NCBI GenBank assembly: GCA_018267585.1
Contig: JAFDYE010000751.1
Span: 1-44,009 of the forward strand
Direction: 5' to 3'
Length of the DNA: 44,009 nucleotides
DNA from: Bacteroidota bacterium
GTDB taxonomy: Bacteria; Bacteroidota; Bacteroidia; Chitinophagales; Chitinophagaceae
The number at the start of each line of letters is the position of its first letter. Positions within the stretch are counted from its first letter, which is position 1. The position numbers and the translations under genes were made by a program. Shown in pieces: positions 13,917 to 43,291 of this stretch. The notes below the pieces were generated by a model. That model did not search any database. It was not told the origin of the DNA and saw only the letters and a program-made list of their open reading frames with translations.

Positions 13917-14453
13917 ATGAAGAGAAGCTTGCTTGCGTCCGCTATTATACTCATTCTTATTTTTTCAGGGGGTCAGCGTGTGGTCGCCCAGACCGAAGAC
14001 ACCGCCTATGTCCGGATGGTTACGGAGCGAGCAGGAAAGATCGTAGCCAAGCTGGGTCTACCCGACAGTTCAAAATTTTATCAGGTTCGTACGATGGTCG
14101 CCGATCAGTATCGGGACCTCAACGCTATGTCGCAGAGGAAGGATACGAATCTGGCGAAGCAGCACAGCGCCTATCTGGCGAAGCTGGGGACGGTGCTGAC
14201 CCCGCAGCAGATCGACCAGGTAAAAGATGGGATGACCTATGGCGTGGTGGAGGTGACGTATCACGCCTACTGTGAGAAATATCCCGCTCTGACGGATGCA
14301 CAGAAATCGTATATTATGAATGCTCTTGTGGAAGCGAGGGAACATGCGATGGATGGTGGCAGCTCGAAGGAGAAGCATGCATGGTTCGGGAAGTATAAGG
14401 GCCGGATCAACAACTATCTCTCTGCGCAGGGGTATAACCAGAAGAAGAACTAA
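13917..14453 (+). CDS. DUF3826 domain-containing secreted protein
   Basis: A 178-residue protein with a signal peptide (MKRSLLASAIILILIFSGG, cleaved after VVAQ). The mature protein is alpha-helical and shows the conserved DUF3826 features: AGKIVAKLGL near the N-terminus, TPQQIDQVKDGMTYGVVEVTY in the middle, then LTDAQKSYIMNALVEAREHAMD and HAWFGKYKGRINNYLSAQGY at the end. DUF3826 genes recur in Bacteroidota polysaccharide loci and have no function that I can state. Its place as first gene of the SusCD transcription unit, 29 bp before susC, suggests a periplasmic or outer-membrane accessory role. A second, divergent copy is fused to a propeller at 37717-39273. Confidence 0.88.
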   Translation: MKRSLLASAIILILIFSGGQRVVAQTEDTAYVRMVTERAGKIVAKLGLPDSSKFYQVRTMVADQYRDLNAMSQRKDTNLAKQHSAYLAKLGTVLTPQQIDQVKDGMTYGVVEVTYHAYCEKYPALTDAQKSYIMNALVEAREHAMDGGSSKEKHAWFGKYKGRINNYLSAQGYNQKKN

Positions 14454-19685: not shown

Positions 19686-21326
19686 ATGAAGAAGAAACGT
19701 TTTTTGGTCACTGCTCTTACCGCCTCGCTGGCGATCTGTCAACCGGGTATGGCACAGTATCCGGATATTCCCCCGGATGTGAAGGCTTCCGCTGATGCTA
19801 TGCTGAAGGAGACTTACCGTCGGAGCGATTCTGCCTGGCAGGTAGCTTTTCCGATCGTGGACAATGATGCGCGGCATGGGAAGCCGTATATTCCGTGGGC
19901 GGCGCGGCCGACGGACCTGCCTCAGTCTTCGCTGCTGGCTTTTCCCGGGGCAGAGGGTGGTGGTGCGCATAGCTATGGGGGCCATGGCGGCAGGGTCTAT
20001 GTGGTGACATCTCTTGGGGACAGTGGTCCGGGAACGTTGCGTTGGGCCTGTGAGCAGGGTGGAGCGCGGATCATCGTGTTCAATGTAGCGGGTATCATAC
20101 ATCTGACCAGTCCGATCATTGTGCGGGCCCCGTATGTCACCATCGAGGGGCAGTCGGCACCGGGTGACGGGGTTTGTGTGGCGGGTGAGTCGTTCTGGAT
20201 CAATACGCATGATGTCATCATCCGGTATATGCGGTTCCGTCGTGGCGAGACCAATGTCGGGCGTCGTGATGATGCGCTGGGCGGCAATCCGGTAGGGAAT
20301 ATCGTACTCGACCACGTGTCTACGAGCTGGGGGCTGGACGAGAATATGTCGTTGTACCGGCATATGTATGATCCGATGGATGGTTCGAAGGAGGAGAAGT
20401 TGGGAACGGTGAATATCACTATTCAGAACTGTATCTCTGCGGAGTCTTTGGATACCTGGAACCATGCTTTTGGAACGACGATGGGTGGCGAGAATTGTAT
20501 GCTGGTCCGCAATCTGTGGGCGGACAATACGGGTCGTAACCCGTCTGTGGGTTGGAATGGGGTATTCAATTTCGTGAACAATGTCGTGTTCAACTGGCAT
20601 CACCGGTCGATGGACGGGGGAGACTATACCAGTCTGTTCAATATCATCAACAATTATTTCAAGCCGGGGCCGGTCACGCCGAAGGACGAGGCTGTAGGGC
20701 ACAGGATACTGAAGCCGGAGAGCGGCAGGAGCAAGCTGAAGACGAAGTATTTCGGTCGTTGTTATGTGAATGGAAATATCATGGATGGCTATCCCGCCAT
20801 CACTAAGGACAACTGGGCCGGCGGGGTGCAGGTGGAAGAGCTCAAGGATGCGGGTCCTTATATGGACTATATGAAGTCTGACAAGCCTTTCCCGATGGCG
20901 CCGGTGAAGATACTGCCGGCGGAGGATGCTTTTAGGTTTGTTCTGAAGAATGTGGGTGCTACGTTGCCCAAGCGGGACGCGGTAGATGCGCGGGTGGTCG
21001 AGCAGGTACGTACGGGTAAAATAACTTATAAGGAGGTGAATACGGATACGCTGCCTCAATTCCATGTTCGTAAATTGCCGAAGGATTCCTATAAACTGGG
21101 GATTGTGACGGAAATCTTCGAGGTGGGCGGTTATCCCAACTATCAGGGTGTGCCTTATAAGGATGCCGACAATGACGGATTGCCTGATGAGTATGAAGTT
21201 AAACATGGTCTGAATCCCAGGGATCCGACAGATTCTGCGAAGCCTGCTGTTAACGGCGGGGGCTATTCGAACATAGAAGTCTATCTCAATACGCTGGCTT
21301 TGAGAGGTGAAAAGCCCATAAAGTAA
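19686..21326 (+). CDS. PL1 family pectate lyase with C-terminal calcium-binding repeat
   Basis: A 546-residue secreted enzyme with a signal peptide ending near GMAQ. The mature enzyme starts its beta-helix at about residue 86 with FPGAEGGGAHSYGGHGGRVYVVTSL, followed by GPGTLRWACEQ, IIVFNVAGIIHL, VTIEGQSAPGDGVCV, IIRYMRFRRGET and LDHVSTSWGLDENMSLY, the pattern of PL1 pectate lyases in Bacteroidota PULs. Near the C-terminus D493-A-D-N-D-G-L-P-D-E-Y-E is a thrombospondin-type-3/EF-hand-like Ca2+ loop, followed by a GGGYSNIEVYLN tail. PL1 enzymes cleave the homogalacturonan backbone by beta-elimination with Ca2+, so this is the main backbone-depolymerizing enzyme in the window. It shares the lighter codon style of susCD. 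The stop overlaps the next ATG by one base (TAATG). Confidence 0.92.
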   Translation: MKKKRFLVTALTASLAICQPGMAQYPDIPPDVKASADAMLKETYRRSDSAWQVAFPIVDNDARHGKPYIPWAARPTDLPQSSLLAFPGAEGGGAHSYGGHGGRVYVVTSLGDSGPGTLRWACEQGGARIIVFNVAGIIHLTSPIIVRAPYVTIEGQSAPGDGVCVAGESFWINTHDVIIRYMRFRRGETNVGRRDDALGGNPVGNIVLDHVSTSWGLDENMSLYRHMYDPMDGSKEEKLGTVNITIQNCISAESLDTWNHAFGTTMGGENCMLVRNLWADNTGRNPSVGWNGVFNFVNNVVFNWHHRSMDGGDYTSLFNIINNYFKPGPVTPKDEAVGHRILKPESGRSKLKTKYFGRCYVNGNIMDGYPAITKDNWAGGVQVEELKDAGPYMDYMKSDKPFPMAPVKILPAEDAFRFVLKNVGATLPKRDAVDARVVEQVRTGKITYKEVNTDTLPQFHVRKLPKDSYKLGIVTEIFEVGGYPNYQGVPYKDADNDGLPDEYEVKHGLNPRDPTDSAKPAVNGGGYSNIEVYLNTLALRGEKPIK

Positions 21327-24300: not shown

Positions 24301-24412
24301 GGGGGACTTTATTGTTTATGTGGCTGCGGGGGTGGAGGAGCCTAAGCTGGAAGGTACGGTTCAGCGTATCGATCCGGGTAATGGGGCGAAGGTTTTGTGG
24401 ATAGAAAAATGA
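21326..24412 (+). CDS. DUF4955-like protein with N-terminal pectate-lyase-type beta-helix
   Basis: A 1028-residue secreted protein (signal peptide to VTAQ, residue 20). Residues about 70-480 read as a right-handed beta-helix of the pectate_lyase_3 type: QQALDYVGGLPPDAHGLRGAVLLGRGTY, a GLVIRSSGVVLRGSG rung, and later SDAWVRQVIAEHF and NRVTVEDCKF. Residues about 660-1028 form a second region with a TIM-barrel-like feel (VVALDHNYGLWYDRRRDDHERIR, WDGLSKYDLTKYNSWYWSRL, LVLIHQNYFQHNIIEAGAHYADFPWRP), which I associate with DUF4955 (perhaps DUF6298) proteins of Bacteroidota PULs. No characterized activity is known to me; uronic-acid polymer hydrolysis, lysis or side-chain removal are all possible. 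It lies between PL1 and GH140, and both ends overlap neighbouring genes. Confidence 0.75.
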   Translation: MKFIYAFVAGVFLFGPVTAQKKPRAPEPPSPVAARGGHLVYVPDDRGNQVPDFSYSGYMGGDSVIPTARVRVVIRPMDGDATFAIQQALDYVGGLPPDAHGLRGAVLLGRGTYSVSGGLVIRSSGVVLRGSGMGEDGTVLVAAGTDRRTLIRVAGVADRVVGKEVDVTDGYVPVGSRVLHVGGRGSGVEAGGGFRVGATVLVRRPSTEGWIRSLGMETFGGGISALGWKAGQRDIYWDRRVVAVNGDALTLDAPITTALDTAYGGGKVAAYRWDGRISQVGVENLRLRSAYDHRNPKDEAHSWMAITLENVSDAWVRQVIAEHFAGSAVDVLETANRVTVEDCKFLAPVSEIGGQRRNAFITTGGQTLMQRLYSERAFHDFAVGFCAPGPNAFVQCQSYYPYGMSGAIDSWASGVLFDVVNVDGQVLGFENREQDGQGAGWCAANSLFWNCTAARINCYRPPGAQNWSYGSWAQFGGDGYWNESNAVIQPRSFYYTQLVERLAQASSVAAERVREDVMKRAQLLPMETEASSSPTVAQAAALIALSKKPRVQMTEWIDQAAQRNPISVEVGAGVVARVPVHKEKMVLKAAPMKVVNGWLTRGGVLVGRRYYEPWWMGNVRPYGIAEAKPAVTRWVPGRTGTGLTDDLMGLTDEMKAKHVVALDHNYGLWYDRRRDDHERIRRIDGDVWPPYYELPFARSGKDTAWDGLSKYDLTKYNSWYWSRLRSFADLSDLKGLVLIHQNYFQHNIIEAGAHYADFPWRPANNINNTGFPEPPPFAGDKRIFMAEQFYDTAHPVRKALHRAFIRQCLDNFSGNSGVIQELAAEFTGPLHFVDFWLDNIRSWEKEKGIKEIIGLSTTKDVQDAILKDPLRGQVVDVIDIRYWYYQEDGKVYAPLGGQSLAPRQHERLLKPKRPSFEQVYRAVSEYRRAYPAKAVMYSAEGCDNFGWAVFMGGGSLANIPVEDGKFLTAAAGMAPVDLPGSPKGVWALGDKKGDFIVYVAAGVEEPKLEGTVQRIDPGNGAKVLWIEK

Positions 24413-26661
24413 TCGACATGAGACGAAGCGTATTGTTTTTACTGATATTATGTTTGGCGGAGGTGGTGGCCGTTCCGCAGGGGTTGCCCCCGTTGCGGGT
24501 TTCGGCGAACAAGCGATTTTTTACCGCTGGTGGCGCGCCTTTTTTCTGGCTGGGAGATACGGGATGGCTGCTGCTGAGCCGGTTGAAGAATGAGGAGGTG
24601 GATAAGTACCTGGACGACCGGAGGGCCAAGGGGTTCAATGTGATCCAGGTGATGGTGGTACATGGATTGGGGGATGTGGATGCCAATGGGGATAGTGCAT
24701 TGGTGGGGAAGGACCTGGCGAGGCCGAAAGACGTTGCCGGCGGATACTGGGATCATCTCGAAAATGTGATCGACAAGGCTGCATCGCGGGGTATCTATGT
24801 GGCGCTGGTGCCGGTGTGGGGTGGTGTTGTGAAGCAGGGGAAATTGGGGGCCGGGGTCGGAAAGCTGTATGCGCAGTTCTTGGCGAGGCGGTATAAGGGG
24901 AAGTCGAATATTGTATGGATGAATGGCGGGGATATTAAGGGTTCGGACTTTAGAGCTACCTGGAATGCGATCGGGATGACGCTAAGGGCGCAAGACCCTG
25001 GTCATCTGATCACCTATCATCCCTTCGGGCGGACCTCGTCGTCCTTCTGGTTTCATCGGCAGCCGTGGCTGGACTTTAACAGCGTGCAGTCGGGGCATCG
25101 CAGCTATGACCAGGATACAGTGGCGGGGGATCTTCAATATGGCGAAGACAACTGGAGATATATACAGGCGGACTATGGGAAGAAGCCGGTGAAGCCGGTG
25201 CTGGATGCGGAGCCTTCGTATGAGGGTATACCGCATGGGCTTCATGATACTACGCAGCCGCGCTGGAGCGCTGATGACGTGCGCCGTTATGCGTACTGGT
25301 CGGTCTTTGCGGGCGCCTGCGGATTTACCTATGGCGATAATTCTGTCATGCAGATGTTGCGTCCGACGGACAAGGGAAGCGCGTATGGGGCGAAGGAGTT
25401 CTGGTATGATGCTTTGGGCGATCCCGGGGCGGGGGAGATGGTTTTTTTGAAGAAGCTGATGCTATCGAAGCCTTATTTCGAGAGGCGGCCGGACCGGTCG
25501 CTGGTTGTCAATCAGGGATCGAAGTATGACTATGCCATAGCGACGAGGGGTGCGCAGTATGCCTTTGTCTATACGTATACCGGCCGGAGGCTGGTGGTGG
25601 ATCCTTCGGAGCTGGGGTTGGCGCAGGTGGAGGCTTCGTGGTATAGTCCGAGGGACGGCGGCTATCAGCTGATCGGTTTGTTTCCGGGGAAGAAGGAGTT
25701 GACGGTCGATCCTCCGGGGCGTCCGGCGCCGGGGAATGACTGGGTGCTGGTGTTGGAGAAGCCGGGGGCGCATGCTTATTTGTTCACTTCTTTTCGCGAG
25801 CCGGCTGTGGACGGGCTTTATTTTCTGGCCAGCGGCGACGGCAAGCACTGGATGGATCTGGGCGGGTCGTGGCTGAAGCCAGCGATCGGAGACAAGAAGC
25901 TGATGCGTGATCCGTCGATGGCGAAGGGGCCGGATGGGGTCTGGCATCTGGTGTGGACCTCGGGATGGAATGGGGACAAGGGGTTTGGGTATGCTGACTC
26001 GAAGGACCTGGTACACTGGAGCGAGCAGCGATATATACCGGTGATGGAGGGTGAGAAGGATGCGTTCAATGTCTGGGCGCCGGAGATCTTTTACGAGAAG
26101 GACAGTGCGCAGTTCATTATCGTCTGGGCTACCACGATTCCCTACCGGTTCCCGAAGGGGTTGGAGGATGAGAAGAACAATCACCGCCTATACTGTACGA
26201 CGACGAAGGATTTCAGGACTTTCTCGCCGGCGCGGCTGTTCTTTGACCCGGGGTATAGCGTGATCGATGCGATGATCGTGCAGCGGGGGGATCATGATTT
26301 TGTATTGGTCTTTAAAGACAATACGCGGCTGCAGCGGAATATAAAGGTGGCGTTTGGTGAGAAGGCGGGGGGGCCGTATGTGCGCGACTCGAAGGCTTTT
26401 ACGCCGGAATTTACGGAGGGGCCGACGGTGGCGGAAGTGGATGGGGGATCCGGGACGCCGGGTAAGAGGGAATACTATATTTATTTTGACAGTTATCGGG
26501 CGAAGAGATATGGGGCGGTGAGGACTACGGACTTTACCCATTTTGAGGATGCTTCGGATGAGGTTAGTGTACCGATGGGGCATAAGCATGGGACGGTAGT
26601 CGCCGCCGACTGGGGGGAAGTGGAAAAACTAATAAAAGAAAGACATGAGCACACGCCGTGA
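24409..26661 (+). CDS. GH140 (DUF4038) apiosidase-like domain fused to a GH43 domain
   Basis: 750 residues from the ATG at 24409, chosen because it overlaps the upstream stop (ATGA); ATG 24418 and GTG 24397 are alternatives. After a signal peptide (RRSVLFLLILCLAEVVAV) comes a GH140/DUF4038 TIM barrel (about 25-345): FFTAGGAPFFWLGDTGWLLL, GFNVIQVMV, D175 in WMNGGD and E268 in LDAEPSYEGIP, the expected acid/base and nucleophile positions. A beta domain follows (about 350-450), then a GH43-like propeller (about 455-735) with base D501 in MRDPSM, pKa-modulating D620 in VIDAMIV and acid E670 in TEGPTV. The founding GH140 member removes apiose-linked chains from RG-II; GH43 enzymes act on alpha-L-arabinose, beta-xylose or galactose. 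Both sites look intact. Confidence 0.87.
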   Translation: MIDMRRSVLFLLILCLAEVVAVPQGLPPLRVSANKRFFTAGGAPFFWLGDTGWLLLSRLKNEEVDKYLDDRRAKGFNVIQVMVVHGLGDVDANGDSALVGKDLARPKDVAGGYWDHLENVIDKAASRGIYVALVPVWGGVVKQGKLGAGVGKLYAQFLARRYKGKSNIVWMNGGDIKGSDFRATWNAIGMTLRAQDPGHLITYHPFGRTSSSFWFHRQPWLDFNSVQSGHRSYDQDTVAGDLQYGEDNWRYIQADYGKKPVKPVLDAEPSYEGIPHGLHDTTQPRWSADDVRRYAYWSVFAGACGFTYGDNSVMQMLRPTDKGSAYGAKEFWYDALGDPGAGEMVFLKKLMLSKPYFERRPDRSLVVNQGSKYDYAIATRGAQYAFVYTYTGRRLVVDPSELGLAQVEASWYSPRDGGYQLIGLFPGKKELTVDPPGRPAPGNDWVLVLEKPGAHAYLFTSFREPAVDGLYFLASGDGKHWMDLGGSWLKPAIGDKKLMRDPSMAKGPDGVWHLVWTSGWNGDKGFGYADSKDLVHWSEQRYIPVMEGEKDAFNVWAPEIFYEKDSAQFIIVWATTIPYRFPKGLEDEKNNHRLYCTTTKDFRTFSPARLFFDPGYSVIDAMIVQRGDHDFVLVFKDNTRLQRNIKVAFGEKAGGPYVRDSKAFTPEFTEGPTVAEVDGGSGTPGKREYYIYFDSYRAKRYGAVRTTDFTHFEDASDEVSVPMGHKHGTVVAADWGEVEKLIKERHEHTP

Positions 26662-29179
26662 TTTTTTGAAGATTGCTTCTATGGGGCCCCTGGTTGTTCC
26701 CCGGCTGGAGTTTGGGAGGAAGAGGGTCAGGTTGTCGGAGGGGGATGTGATCCTTTTTCAGGGGGATTCGATCACCGATGCGAGGAGGAAGAAGGATGAT
26801 AAGGAAGCGAACAGTTCGCCGGCGCTGGGGGTGAGCTATCCTTTTTTTGCTGCCGGCGAATTGCTTTACCGGGGTGCGGGGAAGGATCTGAAGGTCTACA
26901 ACCGGGGGATCAGCGGGAACAAGGTCTATCAGCTGGCGGAGCGCTGGGATGCGGACTGTCTCGATCTGAAGCCTACGGTATTGAGCATCCTGGTGGGGGT
27001 GAATGATTTCTGGCATACGCTGGTGAATGGCTATAAGGGGACGGTGCAGACTTACAGGGATGACTACAAGAAATTACTGGATCGTACGAAGACGGCTTTG
27101 CCGTCGGTGAAGCTGATCATCGGGGAGCCCTATGCGGTGAAGGGGGTAAAAGCGGTGGATGAAAAGTGGTATCCTGCTTTTCCGGAGTATCAGCAGGCGG
27201 CGCGGGAGATAGCGGAGGAGTATGGAGCGGCGTTTATTCCTTATCAGGCTGTTTATGATGAGGCGATGAAGTCTGCGCCGGGCGGCTACTGGACGGCGGA
27301 TGGCGTGCATCCGACGCTGGCGGGTGCGAAGCTGATGGCGGAGGCGTGGATGAAGGTGGTGAGCTTTTTGTTGGTGTTGATATTGGGAGTTGGGATGGTT
27401 AAGGCTCAGGATGGGGTTCACTATAGCGGGGCGACGATCTCGAATGTGGATTATCATCATGGGGAGCTGGCGCCGGTGGTCGGCGTGCATAATATACAGG
27501 TGTTCCGTGCGAACCGGGAGCACCCTGAACTGGCGGAAGATTCGGGGTGGACCTATAACCATGCGCCGATGCTGGCGTACTGGAACAGGAAATTTTATCT
27601 CGAATATCTGAGTGATAAGGTGGGGGAAAGTATTCCGCCGGGGCAGACGTTGCTGCTGACCTCGGATGATGGGTATGTGTGGACCAAGCCGAAGGTGCTG
27701 TTCCCGCCATACAGGGTGCCCGACGGAACGACAAAGGAAGGGCATCCGGGAGTAGCGAAAGACCTGTTTGCGGTGATGCACCAGCGGATGGGTTTTTATG
27801 TTTCCAAGAAGGGCCGTCTGCTGGCGCTGGGTTTTTACGGCATCTGTCTGGACCCGCATGATGACCCGAATGACGGGAAGGGTATCGGCAGGGTGGTCCG
27901 GGAGATACGGGCAGATGGCAGCTGGGGGCCCATCTATTTTATACATTACAACCCGGCGTGGACTGTTGCGAACACGTCCTTTCCCTATTATGCGTCGAGC
28001 AAGGACAAGGGGTTTGTGGCCGACTGCAACGAGCTGATGGCGACGCCGCTGATGATGATGCAGTGGGTGGAGGAGACGGACAGAAAGGACCCGTTGATCC
28101 CATTGCACAAGGATTACAAGGCGTTCAACTTTTATCATTTGCCCGATGGGCGGGTCGTGGGTTTGTGGAAGAATGCGCTGACCTCGATCAGCAAGGATGA
28201 GGGGAAGACCTGGTCTTCGGTGGGGAGGGCGCCGCATTTTGTCAATGCCAATGCGAAGATATGGGGGCAGAAGACGTCGGACGGGCGTTATGCTGTGGTG
28301 TACAATCCATCGGAGTTTCGCTGGCCGTTGGCTATCTCTACGAGCAAGGACGGGCTGGACTATACGAACCTGCTGCTGGTGGAGGGTGAGATATCGACTG
28401 CGCGGTATGGCGGCGCCTATAAGAACTACGGTCCCCAGTATACGCGGGGGATCATCGAGGGTAATGGGGTGGCTCCGGGTGGGAATATGTGGATCACGTA
28501 TAGTATGAATAAGGAGGACATCTGGGTGGGTGAGATACCCGTGCCGGTTGTTGCTGTGGCGGACAGGGATGTAGATGATGTGTTCGACCGGCTGCCTGCG
28601 GGAAAGGAGCTGCAGTATTGGAATGTCTATAGTCCGCTGTGGGCGCCGGTTCGTATCGGTAAGGATGCGCATGGGGCGCGTTGCCTGGTATTGAAGGATG
28701 AGGACCCGTATGATCTTGCGATGGCGGAGCGGGTATTTCCTGTGGCGAGGAAGATGCAGGTGGAGTTCGATGTGACGCCGGCTCAGGCTGATCACGGGCA
28801 ACTGCAGATAGAGCTGCAGAGCGAACGGAATCTTCCGGCGATGCGGCTGAGCTTTGAGCCGGACGGGAATTTGATCGCGAAGGCGGGAGCCAGGGTTAAG
28901 AATGTAATGAAGTATAGCGCGGGGCAGACCTATGTGGTGCGTATCTCGCTGGATATGGATACCAGGATGTATACGGTGAATGTCAACGGGAAACAGCAAT
29001 TTACGCAGCTGTTCTTTGCGCCGGTGCCGGCCTTTGGCCATATCGTATTCCGCACGGGTGAGGCGAGGCATTATCCTACCGCGGAATCTCCGGCGGAGGC
29101 CCGGGAGGATATGAAGGGTGCGGGGGATAAGGTTGCGGCGGCGGAGTTTTTTATTTCGTATCTGAAAACGAGTAAATGA
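26645..29179 (+). CDS. SGNH/GDSL esterase fused in frame to a sialidase-like propeller protein, with an internal signal peptide
   Basis: A single uninterrupted 844-codon frame. Residues 1-235 are an SGNH/GDSL hydrolase with a twin-arginine motif (TRRDFLK) at the N-terminus, block I GDSITD (S42), NRGISGN, block III GVNDFW (N120) and block V DGVHPT (D219, H222). At M236 a textbook Sec signal peptide begins (MKVVSFLLVLILGVG, cleavage after VKAQ). Residues about 256-640 form a beta-propeller with Asp-box-like motifs (TSDDGYVW, SKDEGKTW), and about 645-844 a beta-sandwich. The GDSL part probably removes acetyl groups from pectin; the propeller's activity is unknown. An ATGA motif at 27350-27353 hints that these were once two overlapping genes. 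The start overlaps the upstream gene by 17 bp. Confidence 0.85.
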   Translation: MSTRRDFLKIASMGPLVVPRLEFGRKRVRLSEGDVILFQGDSITDARRKKDDKEANSSPALGVSYPFFAAGELLYRGAGKDLKVYNRGISGNKVYQLAERWDADCLDLKPTVLSILVGVNDFWHTLVNGYKGTVQTYRDDYKKLLDRTKTALPSVKLIIGEPYAVKGVKAVDEKWYPAFPEYQQAAREIAEEYGAAFIPYQAVYDEAMKSAPGGYWTADGVHPTLAGAKLMAEAWMKVVSFLLVLILGVGMVKAQDGVHYSGATISNVDYHHGELAPVVGVHNIQVFRANREHPELAEDSGWTYNHAPMLAYWNRKFYLEYLSDKVGESIPPGQTLLLTSDDGYVWTKPKVLFPPYRVPDGTTKEGHPGVAKDLFAVMHQRMGFYVSKKGRLLALGFYGICLDPHDDPNDGKGIGRVVREIRADGSWGPIYFIHYNPAWTVANTSFPYYASSKDKGFVADCNELMATPLMMMQWVEETDRKDPLIPLHKDYKAFNFYHLPDGRVVGLWKNALTSISKDEGKTWSSVGRAPHFVNANAKIWGQKTSDGRYAVVYNPSEFRWPLAISTSKDGLDYTNLLLVEGEISTARYGGAYKNYGPQYTRGIIEGNGVAPGGNMWITYSMNKEDIWVGEIPVPVVAVADRDVDDVFDRLPAGKELQYWNVYSPLWAPVRIGKDAHGARCLVLKDEDPYDLAMAERVFPVARKMQVEFDVTPAQADHGQLQIELQSERNLPAMRLSFEPDGNLIAKAGARVKNVMKYSAGQTYVVRISLDMDTRMYTVNVNGKQQFTQLFFAPVPAFGHIVFRTGEARHYPTAESPAEAREDMKGAGDKVAAAEFFISYLKTSK
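27350..27409 (+). other. Internal Sec signal peptide and candidate second translation start inside the GDSL-propeller ORF
   Basis: The 20 codons 236-255 read as a complete signal peptide: Met-Lys start, hydrophobic core SFLLVLILGVG, and a V-K-A-Q cleavage region. The ATG at 27350-27352 is in frame with the GDSL domain. The four bases 27350-27353 are ATGA, the same start/stop overlap used by several gene pairs in this locus, but the TGA is in the +1 frame relative to the GDSL domain and is therefore not read. Initiation here would give a 609-residue secreted propeller protein. Confidence 0.7.
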
Positions 29180-32100
29180 GATTTAAAGGGATCATAGGGT
29201 TTGTTCTTTTGTGGGGTGTGGCATTCGGGCAGGAGAGGGCTGTGCCTGCAACGCGGGTGGAGCAGGTGGGTGGGTTTGTGGGGGAAAGGCTCGAGAAGAA
29301 TAAGGATAATTTTCTGAAGACATTTCCGATAGGAAGGTATGTGTCGATGGTGGAGGAGCGGAAGCATGTGGCGTGGGACTGGAGGCAGGGAGAGCAGCCG
29401 GGCAAATGGCTGGAGTCGGCGATATTGAACAAGATGCCGGAGGCGCATGCTGTGTTCGAGCGGCTGCTGAAGGCGCAGGCTCCGGACGGATATCTTGGGG
29501 TGAGCGAGAAGCCGTTGAGGGGGATGGACGCGTATGAGCTGTATTTTACGGAGCATGCGCTGCTGACGGCTTATGAGGTATGGAAGGATCGCAGGGGGCT
29601 GAAGGCGGCCCGGCGGCTGGGGGATTATTTTTTAGACCATATCGGGCCGGGTAAGGAAGAGTTCTGGCCTTCGTCTGTGCATTACCCGGAGAATAAGGGG
29701 AAGGTTTTAAAGGGGACGATGCATTCGGAGATAGCGGGGCATAGTATACATTATTCCTGGGAAGGGACGCTGCTCATCGATCCGGTGATGCGGCTGTATC
29801 AGCTGACCGGTGATAAACGATATTTTGACTGGTGTAAGTGGGTGGTGAGCTCTATCGACAAGTGGAGTGGCTGGGATGCGTATTCCAACCTGGATAAGGT
29901 GGCGGACGGGACGATGGGGATCGACAGGGTGCAACCCTATGTACATGCGCATACTTTCCAGATGAATTTTCTGGGGTTGTTGCGGATGTATGAAGTGAGC
30001 GGGGATACGAATTATCTGAGAAAGGTAGCGGGCGCCTGGAATGATATCAGTCGCCGCCAGCTGTATATAACGGGTGGGGTTAGTGTGGGAGAGCACTATG
30101 AGAAGGATTATGTCAAGCCGCTGACGGGGGAGATGATGGAGACCTGTGCTACGATGTCGTGGATACAGCTGTCGGAGTATCTGCTTGAGCTGACGGGGGA
30201 TCCGAAGTATGCGGATGCGATCGAGCGGATATGTTTCAACCAGGTGTTCGCTGAGCAGACGATCGATGGGGATGCCAATCATTATTTTACGCCGCCGAAC
30301 GGGGTTACTCCGAGGGGATATTTCAGGGAGCCGGATTGTTGTATGGGGAGCGGGCACCGGCTGTTGTCGATGTTGCCGGGATTTATCTATGGAGAGGGGA
30401 AGGGAGGGGACGTCTATGTCAATCAGTATATTCCGTCTGCGGTGAGGATTGGTAAGACGGAGGTAAGGCAGGAAACGAATTTTCCGGAAGACGGGAAGGT
30501 TGTAATTTATGTGAGCCCGGCGGCGCCGGTGGCGTTTGCTGTTCGTGTGCGGGTGCCCGGGTGGTGTAAGGCGCCGGTGGTCGAGGTGAATGGTGGGGCT
30601 GTTTCCGGGGTTGTGCCGGGAAGCTATGTGGTATTGAAGCGGGTTTGGAAGAAGGGGGATAAGATTGTGATATCGCTGCCGATGGAGCTGGAGTGGGTGA
30701 GACATGCCCATTATTTGAAGACTTCGGACAGGAAGCCGTATAAGACTTCGCCTGATGCCGATGCGCCGTATGCTTTGGTAAGAGGGCCGGTGGTATATGC
30801 GATGGATGATATCTGGTATAAGGGGGATACGGCGGAATTTGCGGGCAGTATGGATAGTGTGAAGTATGTGCTTGCGCCGGCGGCCGGGTTGAGGCAGGTG
30901 GCGGCGCCTGCGGGTATATTGGGACCGGGTTATGAAGTGCCGCTGGTGCTGGCGAACGGGAAGGCAGTGACGGTGCCGCTTTATCCGTTTGCGAACATTG
31001 GGAAATGGTACCGGGATGCTGCGCATAAGCCGGATAGCAATGCGGCGGCGTGGAAGTATGCGATATGGCTGAAGGGGGTGGCGCCGGTGGGTTTGTCATT
31101 GCCAAAGATCTTCGAAGACAATATGGTGCTGCAGAGGGGGCGGCCTGTGCCGGTGTGGGGGTTGGCGCCTTTTGGAGCGAGGGTAAGTGTCGGGTTCGGG
31201 GGACAGAGAAAGGAAGTGGTGGCGAATGGAAGGGGGGAATGGAGGTGTGATCTGGATGCGATGGATGTGGTTAGGGAGGGGAAGGAAATGGTGGTGAGTG
31301 ATGACCGGGGAGAGGCCGTGCGTTTTAAGAATGTGCTGGTCGGGGAGGTGTGGTTGTGCAGCGGGCAGTCGAATATGGAATATACGATGCGGAAGAACAG
31401 CAAGTTCGATACGGTTGAGGAAGCGGGGAATCCGGAGATACGGTTATTCCTGGTGGGGACGCATTATAGCAAGCCGGAGACGCATGGTGTGTGGAGTCCG
31501 GCGGTGGGGGAAGCGTTGCGTGGGTTCTCGGCGCCGGGGTATTTTTTTGCGAAAGAATTGAATAAGCAATTGGGTGTGCCGGTGGGGGTGATCGCGAATG
31601 CGGTGCCGGGGAGCGCGATAGAGCCGTATTTAGGAGACAGCGGCAAATTTTATCAGACGATGGTCCGGCCGCTTGCGCCATATGGGATCAAGGGGTTTTG
31701 CTGGTATCAGGGGGAGACGAATTGTATGTTAAACGATACGGTCGCTTATCCGGGGAAGATGAAGAGATTGATAGAGGGATGGAGGGGGATATGGGGAGGG
31801 GCGGATCTGCCTTTCTATTTTGTGCAGATAGCGCCTTATTATTATTCGAAGAGCAATGGCGGGAATCAGGCGCATAGTGTGGAGTCGGAGGCGGATTTCT
31901 GGGGAGCGCAGGAGAAGGCGCTGGCTCTGCCGCATACGGGGATGGTGGTGACGTCTGACCTGGTGGATAGTCTGCAGGATCTGCATCCGGGTCATAAAAG
32001 GGAAGTGGGGCGCCGGCTGGCGCTGTGGGCATTGGCGAAGGATTATGGGCGGCAGGTTGTGTATTCGGGGCCGGTGTTTAAGGGATTGGCGGCGAAGGGC

Positions 32101-32364
32101 AGGAGGATCGGGCTGAGTTTTTCCGATGTGGGTAGCGGGCTGGTGAGCCGGGATGGAAAGGCGCTTAGCTGGTTTGAGGTTGCAGGGGCTGACGGGGGAT
32201 TTGTGGCGGCTAAGGCGAAGATACAGGGATCGGATAAGGTATTGGTTGTTTCGCCGGTGAAGGATCCGAGGGTGGTCCGGTTTGGGTGGAATGAGGCGGC
32301 GCAGCCTAATTTGTTTAATAAGGAAGGGTTGCCTGCGATGCCCTTCCGGACAACTATTGATTGA
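29176..32364 (+). CDS. GH127-type (DUF1680) glycosidase fused to a sialate O-acetylesterase (SASA) domain
   Basis: A 1062-residue secreted bifunctional protein (signal peptide to AFGQ, residue 19). Residues about 20-640 are a GH127/GH146-clan (alpha/alpha)6-barrel enzyme with beta-sandwich; the zinc-thiolate site of HypBA1-type beta-L-arabinofuranosidases is present as E322-T-C324 and C388-C389 (EPDCCMGSGHR). In RG-II loci a GH127 enzyme instead releases aceric acid, so the substrate is open. Residues about 645-1062 are an SGNH-type SASA esterase: LSLPKIFEDNMVLQRG, CSGQSNME (S732), CWYQGETN and DLHPGHK (H937). Such domains deacetylate sialic acid, xylan or other glycans; pectin acetyl groups are the likely target here. 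There is no signal peptide at the junction, so this is a true fusion. Starts by ATGA overlap. Confidence 0.9.
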   Translation: MRFKGIIGFVLLWGVAFGQERAVPATRVEQVGGFVGERLEKNKDNFLKTFPIGRYVSMVEERKHVAWDWRQGEQPGKWLESAILNKMPEAHAVFERLLKAQAPDGYLGVSEKPLRGMDAYELYFTEHALLTAYEVWKDRRGLKAARRLGDYFLDHIGPGKEEFWPSSVHYPENKGKVLKGTMHSEIAGHSIHYSWEGTLLIDPVMRLYQLTGDKRYFDWCKWVVSSIDKWSGWDAYSNLDKVADGTMGIDRVQPYVHAHTFQMNFLGLLRMYEVSGDTNYLRKVAGAWNDISRRQLYITGGVSVGEHYEKDYVKPLTGEMMETCATMSWIQLSEYLLELTGDPKYADAIERICFNQVFAEQTIDGDANHYFTPPNGVTPRGYFREPDCCMGSGHRLLSMLPGFIYGEGKGGDVYVNQYIPSAVRIGKTEVRQETNFPEDGKVVIYVSPAAPVAFAVRVRVPGWCKAPVVEVNGGAVSGVVPGSYVVLKRVWKKGDKIVISLPMELEWVRHAHYLKTSDRKPYKTSPDADAPYALVRGPVVYAMDDIWYKGDTAEFAGSMDSVKYVLAPAAGLRQVAAPAGILGPGYEVPLVLANGKAVTVPLYPFANIGKWYRDAAHKPDSNAAAWKYAIWLKGVAPVGLSLPKIFEDNMVLQRGRPVPVWGLAPFGARVSVGFGGQRKEVVANGRGEWRCDLDAMDVVREGKEMVVSDDRGEAVRFKNVLVGEVWLCSGQSNMEYTMRKNSKFDTVEEAGNPEIRLFLVGTHYSKPETHGVWSPAVGEALRGFSAPGYFFAKELNKQLGVPVGVIANAVPGSAIEPYLGDSGKFYQTMVRPLAPYGIKGFCWYQGETNCMLNDTVAYPGKMKRLIEGWRGIWGGADLPFYFVQIAPYYYSKSNGGNQAHSVESEADFWGAQEKALALPHTGMVVTSDLVDSLQDLHPGHKREVGRRLALWALAKDYGRQVVYSGPVFKGLAAKGRRIGLSFSDVGSGLVSRDGKALSWFEVAGADGGFVAAKAKIQGSDKVLVVSPVKDPRVVRFGWNEAAQPNLFNKEGLPAMPFRTTID

Positions 32365-37716: not shown

Positions 37717-39273
37717 ATGAGAATATTTTGGGTTGTTCTGGGAGTGATCGTTTTTTCCGGTGTGAAGGCGCAGACGTCCGCGCAATCTTCAGAGGAGAAG
37801 AAGGCAGCGGAGTGGGTCGGGTCGTTGAAGCTGGGGGATGAGCCGAAGGAGAGCCGCCTGGAGGCGGTGGTAGAGCGGCATTTGAGGGCGGTGAAGGAGT
37901 GGGATGGGCGTGAGATGCCGAGGATGGTGCACGACAGCTTTATGAATGGTTTGAGGAAGGACCTTCCGGATTCGCAGGTGAATAAGATACTGGATAAGTA
38001 TACGGTGGGAAAAGTGGATTTTACGCTGCGGGGATATAAGGCGATCGTGCCTGATCTGAGTCCGGAGGAGGAGAAGGTGATCAGGGGGAATCTCGAGCAG
38101 GCGAGGGAGCAGGCGGTAGATGTCAGGAGTATGAAGCAGATATCGGCGGTCTTTGAGATATACAAGACGAAGAATGAGCAGTATCTGAATTCGAATGGGA
38201 GGAACTGGCACGAATTATTTAAAGCGTATGTAGATGGGGTGAAGAGGAGGAAGGCGGTGGTGGTGTCGGAGTTCCTGTATGATACGGCTTCGTTCCCCGA
38301 GTGTCATGCGGCGACTATTGCGGAGACGCCGGGGGGATTGGTAGCGGCGTATTTTGGGGGGACGAAGGAAAGGAATCCGGATGTGTGTATCTATGTGAGC
38401 AGGAAGGATCAGGGGGCCAGGCTGTGGTCGGCGCCGGTGAATGTGGCGAATGGCGTGCAGGGCAATGGTGTCCGTTATGCCTGCTGGAACCCGGTGTTGT
38501 ACCAGATACCCGGGGGAGATCTGCTTTTATATTATAAGGTCGGGCCGAGTCCGGCGAAGTGGAAGGGGTGGCTGATCCGGTCGAAGGATGGGGGTGTCAG
38601 CTGGTCGAAGCCGGTGGCCTTGCCGGAGGGTTTTTTGGGTCCGATAAAAAATCAGCCTGTGGCGTTGGCGAGTGGCGCGTTGATCTGTCCGACGAGTGTG
38701 GAAGGCGATGGATGGAAAGTCCATTTCGAGCTGACGAAGGACGGTGGAAGGACGTACCAGATGGGTGGCGCGGTGCCTGCTGCTGCTGATCTGAAGGCGA
38801 TACAGCCGACGATACTATTGCATAAGGACGGGACGATCCAGGCGTTGAGCCGGAGTCAGAACAGGGCTATTCTTTCGACCGAGTCGAAGGATGGGGGGCT
38901 CAGCTGGTCGCCGCTGGAGGCTACAGCGTTACCCAACAATAATTCGGGGATCGACGGCGTCACCCTGGCGGATGGCCGTCAGCTGCTTGTTTATAATCAT
39001 GTGTTGCCGCCGGCCGGTGAGACAAAGGGTGAGCGCTCGCCCCTGAATGTGGCTGTCTCTCCGGACGGGAAGGATTGGTATGCGGCGCTGGTGCTGGAGG
39101 ATGACCATGCCGGACAGTATTCTTACCCTTCGGTCATCCAGTCGAAGGACGGGATGGTCCATATCGTATATACGTGGCACAGGAAGAAGATAAGGTATGT
39201 GGAGATCGATCCGTCGAAGCTGGTATTGAAAAAAATTGAGAACGGCGTCTGGCCGGAAACTGTAAAAAAATAG
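37717..39273 (+). CDS. DUF3826-like domain fused to a sialidase-like (BNR) six-bladed propeller
   Basis: 518 residues, signal peptide MRIFWVVLGVIVFSGVKAQ. Residues about 25-165 align along their length with the DUF3826 protein encoded at 13917 (QVNKILDKYTVGKVDFTLRGY versus QIDQVKDGMTYGVVEVTYHAY; NLEQAREQAVD versus ALVEAREHAMD; YKTKNEQYLNSNGRN versus YKGRINNYLSAQGYN) but have lost most invariant positions. Residues about 183-505 form a BNR_2-type propeller with Asp boxes (SKDGGVSWS, TKDGGRTY, SKDGGLSWS, SPDGKDWY). The usual sialidase arginine triad is not obvious, so sialidase activity should not be assumed; Kdo or Dha release in RG-II is one conceivable role. It is the last extracytoplasmic gene of the unit, 5 bp after GH78. 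Confidence 0.82.
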   Translation: MRIFWVVLGVIVFSGVKAQTSAQSSEEKKAAEWVGSLKLGDEPKESRLEAVVERHLRAVKEWDGREMPRMVHDSFMNGLRKDLPDSQVNKILDKYTVGKVDFTLRGYKAIVPDLSPEEEKVIRGNLEQAREQAVDVRSMKQISAVFEIYKTKNEQYLNSNGRNWHELFKAYVDGVKRRKAVVVSEFLYDTASFPECHAATIAETPGGLVAAYFGGTKERNPDVCIYVSRKDQGARLWSAPVNVANGVQGNGVRYACWNPVLYQIPGGDLLLYYKVGPSPAKWKGWLIRSKDGGVSWSKPVALPEGFLGPIKNQPVALASGALICPTSVEGDGWKVHFELTKDGGRTYQMGGAVPAAADLKAIQPTILLHKDGTIQALSRSQNRAILSTESKDGGLSWSPLEATALPNNNSGIDGVTLADGRQLLVYNHVLPPAGETKGERSPLNVAVSPDGKDWYAALVLEDDHAGQYSYPSVIQSKDGMVHIVYTWHRKKIRYVEIDPSKLVLKKIENGVWPETVKK

Positions 39274-39277
39274 ACTT

Positions 39278-40261
39278 ATGACTACGCTGGAAAAGAAGTT
39301 TGTCCCGGTGATGATCACGCCCTTCAATCTGAAGGCGAAGGTGGACCTGGATGTTGTCTCGACGCTGGTGGAGTTCTACCTGGCGGCGGGTGTCAAGGGA
39401 TTTTTCGCGAACTGTCTCAGCAGCGAGATGTATAGCATCTCCGAAGACGAGCGGCTGGAGCTGACCCGGCATGTTGTCCGGGTGGTGGATGGCCGGGTGC
39501 CGATAGTGGCGACCGGGTCGTTCGGACTTACGATAGAGGACAAGGCGGATTTTGCGGGTCGTATCTATGATACGGGTATTGACGCGGTGATCCTGATCAC
39601 CGGGCACTATGCGAATGTGGAGGACAGCGATAGCGTGCTGCTGCGAAACTTTGACAAGATGTTCCGGCTGACGAAGGATATTCCGATGGGCCTTTATGAG
39701 TGTCCGGCTCCATATAAAAGGATCATTACGGCGGAGGTGTTTAAGACGTTGCTGGGGACAGGGCGGCTGGTCTATCATAAGGACACCTCTATCGACCTGG
39801 AGCAGGTCAGGGCAAAGCTGGATGTGCTCAGGCAAGGAGAATATGGGTTGGAGTTCTATGACGCGCATACGCCGAATGCGATGTATTCTTTGCAGATGGG
39901 TGCGAAGGGAATGTCTTCTATTTCGGGGAATTTTTACCCGGAGATCCTTGTCTGGATGTGTGACCATGCGAACGATCCGGAGAGGCAGGAGGATGTTCGC
40001 TGGCTGCAGGGCGAGCTTAGCCGGGTAGATCCGCTGATACATGTGGCTTATCCGATGTCTGCGAAGTATTTTTTGCAAAAGCGGGGTTTGCCGGTCCGTA
40101 CGATCAGCAGGGCGCATGCGTTGGAGCTGACGGTGCAGCAAAAGCAGGTGCTGGATGATATACATTACAGTTTTCTCGGGTGGTGTGAGCGGCTGGGTAT
40201 TCAGCCGGTACAGACGGGTAAGCTGATCAAAAATAAAATGCCTTTAGATCCGCCGATATGA
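39278..40261 (+). CDS. DapA/NanA superfamily aldolase or dehydratase, divergent
   Basis: 327 residues, no signal peptide, hence cytoplasmic. A class I aldolase TIM barrel: FVPVMITPFNLKAKVDLD at the start, phenol residue Y140 in GLYECPAPYKR and Schiff-base lysine K168 in VYHKDTS; the Y-to-K spacing of 28 matches E. coli DapA (Y133/K161). The usual TTGE substrate-carboxylate loop is replaced by LSSE in FANCLSSEMYSISEDER, which argues against lysine biosynthesis and for a sugar-acid substrate such as 2-keto-3-deoxy-rhamnonate or another ketodeoxy acid from pectin. It lies 4 bp downstream of the DUF3826-propeller gene and overlaps the dehydrogenase gene by ATGA. Confidence 0.85.
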   Translation: MTTLEKKFVPVMITPFNLKAKVDLDVVSTLVEFYLAAGVKGFFANCLSSEMYSISEDERLELTRHVVRVVDGRVPIVATGSFGLTIEDKADFAGRIYDTGIDAVILITGHYANVEDSDSVLLRNFDKMFRLTKDIPMGLYECPAPYKRIITAEVFKTLLGTGRLVYHKDTSIDLEQVRAKLDVLRQGEYGLEFYDAHTPNAMYSLQMGAKGMSSISGNFYPEILVWMCDHANDPERQEDVRWLQGELSRVDPLIHVAYPMSAKYFLQKRGLPVRTISRAHALELTVQQKQVLDDIHYSFLGWCERLGIQPVQTGKLIKNKMPLDPPI

Positions 40262-41385
40262 TGACTATATATTTTCCGGGGAAGCTGGTTTTTGGGAATG
40301 GGGTGATCGAGGGGTTGAGGGAGGAGGTGTTGGGGCTGTCGCCGCGGCGGGTGTTTGTTGTTACGATAGAGCCGTTGGTGGAGAAGGTGAGTGTTGCCTG
40401 GGATGAGCTTGATGCTATGGTGTATACCGGGATCGTTGCGGAGCCAGGCTTTGATGACTTTTATCGGGTGATGGAGGTCGCGAAGCCTTTCGATCCGGAT
40501 GTGGTGATTGGGATCGGGGGAGGAAGTGTGCTGGATGTGGCCAAGATGGTGGCGGCGCAGCTGGGCAATGAGCAGAAGCTGGATGAATGGGTGGGGGCCG
40601 GCTTGTTGAAGGGAAGGTCGCGGAAGCTGGTTTGTGTGCCGGCGACGTCGGGAACGGGAAGCGAGGTCTCTCCGAACGCGATACTGGTAGATAACCGGGA
40701 TAATCAGAAGAAGGGTTTTATCAGTCCGTACCTGGTGCCGGATATTGTATACGTCGATCCGATGCTGACCGTGAGCGTTCCGCCGGGGGTGACGGCTGCG
40801 ACGGGGCTGGATGCGCTGACCCACTGTCTGGAAGCCTATACGAATAAGTTTGCTCAGCCTTTTATCGATATGTATGCTTATGAGGGGATGCGGCTGATCG
40901 CGTCGAACCTGGTGCGGGCGGTGAAGCAGGGGGATGATGAGGAGGCCAGGTCGAAGGTGGCGATGGGAAGTCTGCTGGGGGGCTTTTGTCTGGGGCCGGT
41001 GAATACGGCGGCGGTGCATGCGCTGTCCTATCCGCTGGGGAGCAGGTTTCATTTGCCGCATGGTCTGTCCAATGCGTTGTTGCTGCCTTATGTGATGGAG
41101 TATACTATTCCTTCAGCGGTGGACCGGTATGCCGATGTGGCTGTTGCGCTGGGCTGTGAGCGGGGAGGGGATGCGATGGCGACGGCGATGAAGGGGGTAG
41201 AAAAGATAAGGATGCTTATCCGTGAATGCGGAATACCGGCGACGTTGAAGGAGCTGGGTATTCCCCGGGATGCTATACCGGGGATGGCTGCGGAGGCGAT
41301 AAAGATCGTCCGGTTGTTGAAGAATAATCCGAGACCGGTTGGGTTGGAGGATGCTATTGGTATTTTTAAATCTGCGTATGAATAA
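40258..41385 (+). CDS. Iron-containing alcohol dehydrogenase (lactaldehyde reductase-like)
   Basis: 375 residues, cytoplasmic. Group III Fe-ADH fold: N-terminal NAD(P)-binding region with GGGS (87-90) in VVIGIGGGSVLDVAKMVA, VPATSGTGSEVSPNAIL, and metal ligands D185 and H189 (GLDALTHCLEAY), H254 and H268 (VHALSYPLG...LPHG), spaced as in FucO. The extra histidine of FucO (AHPLG) is Tyr here (SYPLG). Family members reduce lactaldehyde, glycolaldehyde, succinate semialdehyde or maleylacetate. In this context a small aldehyde produced by the neighbouring aldolase is the natural candidate; L-lactaldehyde would fit rhamnose or fucose breakdown. ATGA coupling gives the start; ATG 40261 is an alternative. 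Its end overlaps the next gene by 8 bp. Confidence 0.88.
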   Translation: MMTIYFPGKLVFGNGVIEGLREEVLGLSPRRVFVVTIEPLVEKVSVAWDELDAMVYTGIVAEPGFDDFYRVMEVAKPFDPDVVIGIGGGSVLDVAKMVAAQLGNEQKLDEWVGAGLLKGRSRKLVCVPATSGTGSEVSPNAILVDNRDNQKKGFISPYLVPDIVYVDPMLTVSVPPGVTAATGLDALTHCLEAYTNKFAQPFIDMYAYEGMRLIASNLVRAVKQGDDEEARSKVAMGSLLGGFCLGPVNTAAVHALSYPLGSRFHLPHGLSNALLLPYVMEYTIPSAVDRYADVAVALGCERGGDAMATAMKGVEKIRMLIRECGIPATLKELGIPRDAIPGMAAEAIKIVRLLKNNPRPVGLEDAIGIFKSAYE

Positions 41386-42214
41386 GAAATACAGGGGTGT
41401 GGTCGTGCCGATGGTCACGCCATTGAATGCGGATCTGTCGCTCGATGTTGACGCTGTTGAGCGGTTGCTGTTGTTGTTCCGTCAGCACGGGGTGCAGCCT
41501 TTTGTGCTGGGGACTACGGGGGAGGCGGCTTCGTTGCCGACTGGGTTGAAACAGGAGTTCGTCAGGGCGGCGGGCAAGGTGAAGCAGGCGGGGGATGTAC
41601 TTTATGTCGGGGTTGGGTCGAATTGTCTGGCTGAATCGGTGGAGGCGGCTCGCTTTGCGTTTGGTTCGGGGGCGGATGTGGTGGTTGCGACCCTGCCTTC
41701 CTATTATACGCTGACCGAGGCGCAGATGGAGCGATATTTTGAGCGGCTGGCGTCTCAGGTTGGCGGGCCGCTGATCATTTATAATATTCCGGCGACGACG
41801 CATCATTCTATTCCGCTGGAGATCATCGACAGGCTGAGTCATCATCCCAATGTGGCCGGGACCAAGGATTCCGAGCGGAGCGAAGAGCGGCTGCTGGCTT
41901 CTTTAGGGCTATGGTCGGGGCGTTCCGATTTCAGTCATTTCCTGGGGTGGGCGGCGAAGTCGGGGATGGCGCTGCTTGGCGGCGGCGATGGGCTGGTGCC
42001 GAGCACGGCCAACTTTTCACCGTCGATCTATCGCGATATGGTGGAGGCTGCGGAGCTGGGGGATACAGAGAAGGTGAATGCCTTGCAGGCAATGTCCGAC
42101 GAGCTGGGAAATTCTTACCAGTCGGGGAAGCTGCTGGGTGAGTCGCTGGCGGCGTTGAAACGGATCATGGAAAAGGAGGGGCTTTGCAAGGCTTATATGA
42201 TGCCCCCTTTATAA
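41378..42214 (+). CDS. DapA family protein (dihydrodipicolinate synthase / N-acetylneuraminate lyase superfamily)
   Basis: 278 residues from ATG 41378; a TTG 39 bases upstream would lie deep in the preceding gene. Canonical motifs: GVVVPMVTPLNADLSLD, LGTTGEAASL (TTGE loop intact), Y135 in IIYNIPATT and Schiff-base K163 in AGTKDS, spacing 28. It is shorter and more canonical than the paralogue at 39278. Its presence in a pectin locus with a dehydrogenase and a PdxA2 homologue suggests a catabolic aldolase or dehydratase rather than lysine synthesis, but a housekeeping DapA role cannot be excluded from sequence alone. Confidence 0.87.
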   Translation: MNKKYRGVVVPMVTPLNADLSLDVDAVERLLLLFRQHGVQPFVLGTTGEAASLPTGLKQEFVRAAGKVKQAGDVLYVGVGSNCLAESVEAARFAFGSGADVVVATLPSYYTLTEAQMERYFERLASQVGGPLIIYNIPATTHHSIPLEIIDRLSHHPNVAGTKDSERSEERLLASLGLWSGRSDFSHFLGWAAKSGMALLGGGDGLVPSTANFSPSIYRDMVEAAELGDTEKVNALQAMSDELGNSYQSGKLLGESLAALKRIMEKEGLCKAYMMPPL

Positions 42215-42223
42215 AACTGTTGT

Positions 42224-43288: not shown

Positions 43289-43291
43289 TTG

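Follow-up and report, generated by a model that had tools for sequence, protein, structure and literature searches.

A GDSL esterase and a GH143-type propeller joined in one open reading frame with a retained internal export signal: most likely a genuine, lineage-specific gene fusion

Results

Locus and domain architecture

The DNA analysed here (the window) is a stretch of 44,009 nucleotides, contig JAFDYE010000751.1 of assembly GCA_018267585.1, from a Bacteroidota bacterium of the family Chitinophagaceae. Apiosidase-like, GH127, SASA, GH2, alpha-rhamnosidase, GH95, TonB-receptor/SusD-type and DUF6298 products are encoded in the window, a make-up that we take to be that of a rhamnogalacturonan-II utilisation locus, and the enzymes fused in the gene described here would probably serve pectin breakdown. 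This gene is a single open reading frame (ORF) of 844 codons (844 residues) that begins with ATG and contains no internal stop; the claim of an earlier note on this DNA, that no stop codon separates an esterase from a propeller, holds. The features referred to below are as follows.

24397-26661, + strand: upstream neighbour, apiosidase-like and BT_3657/GH43-like fusion without an internal signal (Pfam and junction inspection)
26645-29179, + strand: SGNH/GDSL esterase, internal Sec-type signal and GH143-type propeller with a sialidase-like CBM (ORF and Pfam)
26645-26716, + strand: Tat-type N-terminal signal, RR motif retained, remainder shortened (comparison of 20 distinct GDSL N-termini)
26762-27334, + strand: SGNH/GDSL hydrolase domain, residues 40-230, with S42, N120, D219 and H222 (Pfam and sequence)
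27347-27361, + strand: W-M-K-V-V codons common to the esterase C-terminus and the signal n-region (C-termini of relatives)
27350-27406, + strand: internal Sec-type signal MKVVSFLLVLILGVGMVKA (M236-A254; rule scan, with cleavage before Q255 expected from orthologues)
27407-29176, + strand: GH143-type propeller and CBM (5mqr_A residues 24-610, E 2.3e-228)
29176-32364, + strand: downstream neighbour, GH127 and SASA esterase fusion without an internal signal (Pfam and junction inspection)

Pfam matches in the fused product were Lipase_GDSL_2 at residues 40-230 (PF13472; 82.6 bits, cut-off 32.9), Beta-prop_BT_1020 at residues 257-491 (PF24067; 405.5 bits, cut-off 27) and Sialidase-like_CBM at residues 659-818 (196.9 bits, cut-off 27); no NCBIfam model matched the fusion, and no regulatory RNA was matched in the window by Rfam at gathering scores. 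In SGNH/GDSL hydrolases, blocks I, II, III and V carry S, G, N and D/H, respectively, and GDS42, SGN, GVN120D and D219-x-x-H222 are all present, with the catalytic residues of a complete esterase located at the positions that the earlier note had given. The solved chain nearest in sequence to the esterase half is 4q9a ('Tat pathway signal sequence domain protein'; match to residues 27-238, E 1.9e-70), which, unlike the fusion, is a 229-residue single-domain chain. The second half, which we take to be of the BT1020/GH143 type, aligns along the whole N-terminal half of BT1020 of Bacteroides thetaiotaomicron (5mqr_A, residues 24-610 of 1108); entries 5mqr (PDB molecule name 'Beta-L-arabinobiosidase') and 5mqs presumably represent this GH143 half. 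BT1020 is itself a two-enzyme fusion, from which the fusion in the window differs in having an esterase in front and no GH142 half. Structure prediction of the fusion, with one alignment of 22 relatives' sequences in which the esterase rows were misplaced (23-26% identity to the fusion) and another of nine of these 22, was too poor for use (mean pLDDT 50.8, pTM 0.34).

Several other features of the window were recorded. A downstream block at 39278-44009 encodes two aldolases of the DHDPS family, an iron alcohol dehydrogenase, a dehydrogenase of the PdxA family and, truncated where the contig ends, the first part of an SBD_N protein, presumably of the four-carbon acid sugar kinase type; the block resembles a pathway by which 2-keto-3-deoxy sugar acids released by GH143 could be used in the cytoplasm. 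One ORF at 37717-39273 combines DUF3826 with a BNR_2 propeller, and another DUF3826 ORF, shorter than the first, is located at 13917-14453, 767 nt past the preceding listed gene. Two ORFs with no Pfam match, 31-1212 and 19686-21326, resemble the C-terminal part of alpha-D-galacturonidase and pectate lyase PelZ (NCBIfam), respectively, at scores well below the curated cut-offs. On the minus strand, an open frame of 665 codons (27074-29071) runs opposite the propeller; the window has several such long antisense frames, probably through an effect of codon usage.

Distribution of the fusion and structure of the junction

In those relatives in which both domains were found, they are encoded by separate genes, seen as 15 distinct adjacent pairs, with spacings that range between a 1-nt overlap and a gap of 243 nt, and with a wider gap in one further locus (L145). 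Among 33 genomes of the genus, the GDSL-GH143 fusion occurs in one, the window's own; four others carry GH143 at 76-80% identity and three more at 42-44%, and none of these frames, which have 580-648 codons, could accommodate a GDSL domain as well. We also surveyed a sample of 394 genomes of the family, in which length was the sole criterion for most GH143 frames (about 800 codons are needed for a GDSL+GH143 fusion) and a few partial matches or frames of 122-450 codons were not judgeable. Three GH143 frames in this sample exceed 680 codons, not counting frames, up to 710 codons long, that match the propeller model only weakly and over a short stretch: that of the window (847 codons in this survey) and two of 1340-1341 codons, both of which are apiosidase+GH43-like+GH143 fusions. 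Among 132 propeller locus records, which include duplicates between collections, the GDSL fusion was found only in two, L001 and L080, both of which are the window's own locus. The close relatives are draft genomes, e.g., 'Puia dinghuensis' NGEE_A_bin4 (L087), SZAS-47 (L086) and Chitinophagaceae bacterium (L089).

The nearest relative, G017, shares 78% identity with the esterase and 80% with the GH143 half. In the nearest relatives the esterase ends in A-x-A-W-[ML]-x-x-V-x-x-stop and the propeller is a gene of its own with its own signal; the W is conserved in 18 of 19 distinct relatives' esterase C-termini, with the stop 5-8 residues downstream. At the G017 junction, TGGATGCAGGTGGTGAATGTTTGATGAATCG, the stop TGA and the start ATG share one base (a TGATG overlap), whereas neither this stop nor this start is present at the window junction, TGGATGAAGGTGGTGAGCTTTTTG. 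The distance from the W codon to the CAG that follows the signal is 60 nt in the window versus 89 nt in G017, a difference of 29. From the W codon, 15 of 17 nt (counted by eye) are like the G017 esterase frame, and this similarity extends three codons (K, V, V) beyond ATG 27350, indicating that the esterase frame and the signal start are one frame by homology. Taken together, frame homology and the 29-nt difference make a one-base error an unlikely cause, and a frameshift origin, which the earlier note had raised, is unlikely for the same reasons. By contrast, its proposal of a derived fusion is borne out by the adjacent but separate genes of relatives and by the overlap in G017 versus none in the window. 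W-M-K-V-V does, as the note had observed, double as esterase C-terminus and signal start, with M-K-V-V representing both tail and n-region. The comparison of orthologous loci that the note had suggested did find separate genes, but the overlap in G017 is TGATG and not the anticipated ATGA; the ATGA at 27350-27353, proposed to mimic such an overlap, contains a TGA that is out of the esterase frame and is a chance occurrence, because G017 reads ATGC there. In G017, two TGAAT copies 11 nt apart span the stop, and loss between these repeats would join the frames, a deletion route that is plausible, if short of proven. As the length of the signal varies between relatives, there was likely more than one event.

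The internal signal compared with other fused junctions

Signals were scored by a rule that combines a basic n-region, an uncharged hydrophobic core and small residues at -3/-1, and the rule was applied to the 4,132 internal Met of 556 long ORFs from 81 sequences (the window and 80 loci), these ORFs being the longest non-overlapping frames of GH143-centred loci and hence a sample of unproven genes that is not genome-wide. M236 of the window ranked first with a score of 3.43, the runner-up scoring 2.62. At a threshold of at least 2.0 there were 31 internal hits, and the other 30, none above 2.62, all fall in one recurring propeller stretch that starts MGF[FY]. For orthologue N-termini, the rule found a signal in 86 of 110 distinct sequences (median 2.74, 95th percentile 3.42), a count made with no score threshold, unlike that of the internal hits; the GH143 signal of G017 scores only 1.54, and that of L005 was missed by the rule. 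MKVVSFLLVLILGVGMVKA, followed by Q, has a basic n-region, a hydrophobic core, small residues at -3 and -1 and the usual length. While the rule's top-scoring cut fell after residue 15, we adopted the site between A and Q from the orthologues, as most of the listed orthologue signals also end there. By its sequence, then, the internal signal M236-A254 is more than chance, in agreement with the earlier claim of a complete Sec signal within the ORF.

Seventeen other distinct fused junctions occur in these loci (apiosidase to GH43-like, seven; GH43-like to GH143, three; DUF6298 to apiosidase, two; GH127 to SASA, three; GH143 to GH142, two), and inspection by eye found an internal signal at none of them. 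That the inner signal is kept at the esterase-propeller junction and absent at these 17 suggests either that the fusion is recent or that the signal is still in use. The GH143+GH142 fusions (L124, L160), for example, have no signal at their junction, and three loci with apiosidase+GH43-like+GH143 (L133 from Chitinophaga japonensis, L165 and L166) resemble the window in having an enzyme fused ahead of GH143 but differ in the partner and in that the GH143 signal is gone. Fusions in these loci vary genome by genome. Apiosidase and GH43-like (BT_3657-type) domains are fused, with no internal signal, at 24397-26661 of the window and in L116, L120, L124, L133, L165 and L166; in G054 and G038 (L043 and L047) the GH43-like gene is separate and its N-terminus resembles a lipoprotein signal. 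DUF6298 is fused to apiosidase in G017 (L048:6125-10442) and G012 (L052:11777-16166), and the two are separate ORFs in the window.

The Tat-type signal and constraint on the esterase

The esterase N-terminus reads STRRDFLK, and RR-x-[FL] is found in all 20 distinct N-termini compared, the window's included. The earlier note had reported a Tat motif, and the twin-arginine motif is indeed present, but from RR to QGDS the window has only 35 residues, fewer than any of the other 19, which have 39-67 (39 in L024 and 47 in G017, which makes the window's signal 12 residues shorter than that of G017). [AV]-x-A, present in 18 of the 19 others (L059 being the exception), is absent from the Tat-type signal of the window, so that of the usual features of a Tat substrate the twin-arginine motif is found and the usual hydrophobic region and A-x-A-type cleavage site are not.

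A search for TatC in the window's genome, a draft of 929 contigs, found none, while TatC occurs in 28 of the 33 genus genomes and in 17 of the 18 good ones. In relatives, tatC lies in a conserved murA-gmk-tatC-TPR block (the names of all genes but tatC being our presumptive ones), and neither the murA-like neighbour nor the 324-aa neighbour was found in the window's genome; likewise, a search of that genome by DNA with the 4.3-kb G017 contig that holds the tatC region gave only one 85-nt match. Because TatC's neighbours are missing as well, the absence of the block is probably an assembly gap and the absence of TatC is uninformative; loss of the Tat pathway was dropped as a cause on these grounds and because a TatA gene was found. 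Peptidase_S26 is present at two loci in the genome.

Relative-rate tests of the window and G017 esterases gave no significant acceleration with five outgroups (p 0.16-0.85), and among all 10 tests one was at p 0.014 (GH143, outgroup L010, with more change in the window). The dN/dS between window and G017 was 0.22 for the esterase and 0.12 for GH143, dS being saturated in most pairs. Pseudogenisation of the esterase was rejected on account of its intact catalytic residues and the relative-rate tests, the contrary points being the higher dN/dS and the single p of 0.014. The genome's remaining GDSL matches are only distantly related, at 27-28% identity.

Discussion

We conclude that the ORF most probably represents a real gene fusion, specific to one lineage, with a retained internal export signal. 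The sequences show a fusion of genes that are separate in relatives, with an intact Sec-type signal between the two enzymes and a shortened Tat-type signal in front; the deletion route, translocation, cleavage and fate of the esterase described next are what we infer from this arrangement. Our tentatively favoured reading is that of a stop-loss fusion, translated mainly as one chain, whose internal signal exports GH143 and is cut by signal peptidase, with the esterase left inside. A small deletion, or a few of them, would have removed the esterase stop together with the overlapping GH143 start and n-region, leaving a single frame in which the esterase's last codons (M-K-V-V) became the new n-region of the old Sec signal. 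The ORF would be translated mainly as a single 844-residue chain, from which the esterase would be first to emerge and fold, and the strongly hydrophobic internal signal would then insert N-in/C-out through Sec. In single-span N-in membrane proteins, a folded N-terminal domain is inside and the part after the hydrophobic segment outside; by this topology, GH143 would be translocated and signal peptidase I would cut between VKA and Q, giving a mature N-terminus like that of relatives. The esterase would remain on the inner side of the membrane, either free or tethered by what is left of the signal, in keeping with the erosion of its Tat-type signal. Tat export of the chain would require the internal segment to cross too, so that two signals would compete, and the shortened Tat-type signal suggests that Sec wins. 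The earlier note had offered a polyprotein split by signal peptidase as one of three possibilities, and it is this mode that we rank first, by inference. Several points weigh against it. A folded N-terminal enzyme on the chain may make for poor export, and we know of no example in this phylum of such a chain being exported. Moreover, an esterase stranded inside would leave its continued constraint unexplained, for which Tat export or a recent fusion may account; and, as a TatA gene is present, the chain could be exported entire by Tat.

Bacterial in-frame internal starts are known, and two products could arise from one frame if ATG 27350 also served to start GH143 with a normal Sec signal, the full-length protein being a fused esterase by-product. 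We consider this rather unlikely, the start context being mixed. A canonical signal of 19 residues has its n-region at ATG 27350, its second residue being K where G017 has Q, and the mean accessibility around this ATG is start-like (0.52, versus 0.49 for 19 window starts and 0.41 for 283 internal ATGs). The 70-nt folding energy (-17.1) and upstream A content (0.15) of ATG 27350, on the other hand, are nearer those of internal ATGs (means -18.0 and 0.20) than those of window starts (-10.6 and 0.37), 18 of the 19 window starts being more weakly folded. The GH143 starts picked in 15 relatives, of which that for L167 is doubtful as it has no signal, average -10.0 and 0.37, with none at or below -17.1 and two with A at or below 0.15. 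The real GH143 start of G017 (-15.6, A 0.20) is, however, nearly as structured and A-poor, so that start context tells less against internal initiation than the averages alone would imply. An A at -3, -6, -12 and -13 helps initiation in Flavobacterium according to one report (PMC6847099), and 27350 has none of these, as is also true of five of the 19 window starts. A GGAGG lies 5 nt upstream of 27350, but another report describes Shine-Dalgarno sequences as unrecognised by Bacteroidia ribosomes (PMC9976891). A stop codon that could drive coupled re-initiation is also absent. The earlier proposal of internal initiation at 27350 is thus weakened by folding and upstream A, while accessibility and the similar start in G017 speak for it, and it ranks second.

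It is improbable that the whole chain is a bifunctional periplasmic enzyme, exported once (folded by Tat, or by Sec), in which the old signal has become a linker, as in the other fusions of these loci. Neighbouring enzymes are often fused here (apiosidase+GH43-like, with or without +GH143, GH143+GH142, DUF6298+apiosidase and GH127+SASA), and the RR motif and a TatA gene are retained; against this, the 17 other junctions have no internal signal, the M236 signal outscores most free orthologue signals, and the Tat-type signal, shorter than the 19 others, lacks [AV]-x-A. Finally, an assembly or base-call artefact that conceals two real genes is very improbable, even though the window is one of 929 contigs in a draft and no second sequence of the species was recognised among the relatives searched (same-genome records were possibly excluded), since the net difference is 29 nt rather than a single base, the G017-like esterase frame continues past ATG 27350, and both halves match the same syntenic relative.

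Returning to the one-chain reading with signal peptidase cleavage, a partial parallel exists outside the phylum: the chain of the Streptomyces Rieske protein is reportedly also handled by Sec. As described in one study (PMC13186574), that protein is, like the fusion, a single chain with an internal export signal; its internal signal is a Tat signal that follows membrane segments, whereas in the window the Tat-type signal comes first and the Sec-type signal is internal.

It is possible, if somewhat doubtful, that one ORF here yields two enzymes in two compartments, with signal peptidase as the processing protease of a natural polyprotein, with Tat erosion and capture of a Sec signal occurring together in one lineage, and with M-K-V-V under two selections. 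Many fusions without an inner signal and one with it provide a natural test of how a stop-loss between separately exported proteins survives, whether by internal cleavage, by internal initiation or with one partner left inside. The arrangement is also a warning for annotation pipelines, as a single 'bifunctional' gene call may give two mature proteins, and it raises a testable question on the export of one chain with two signals.
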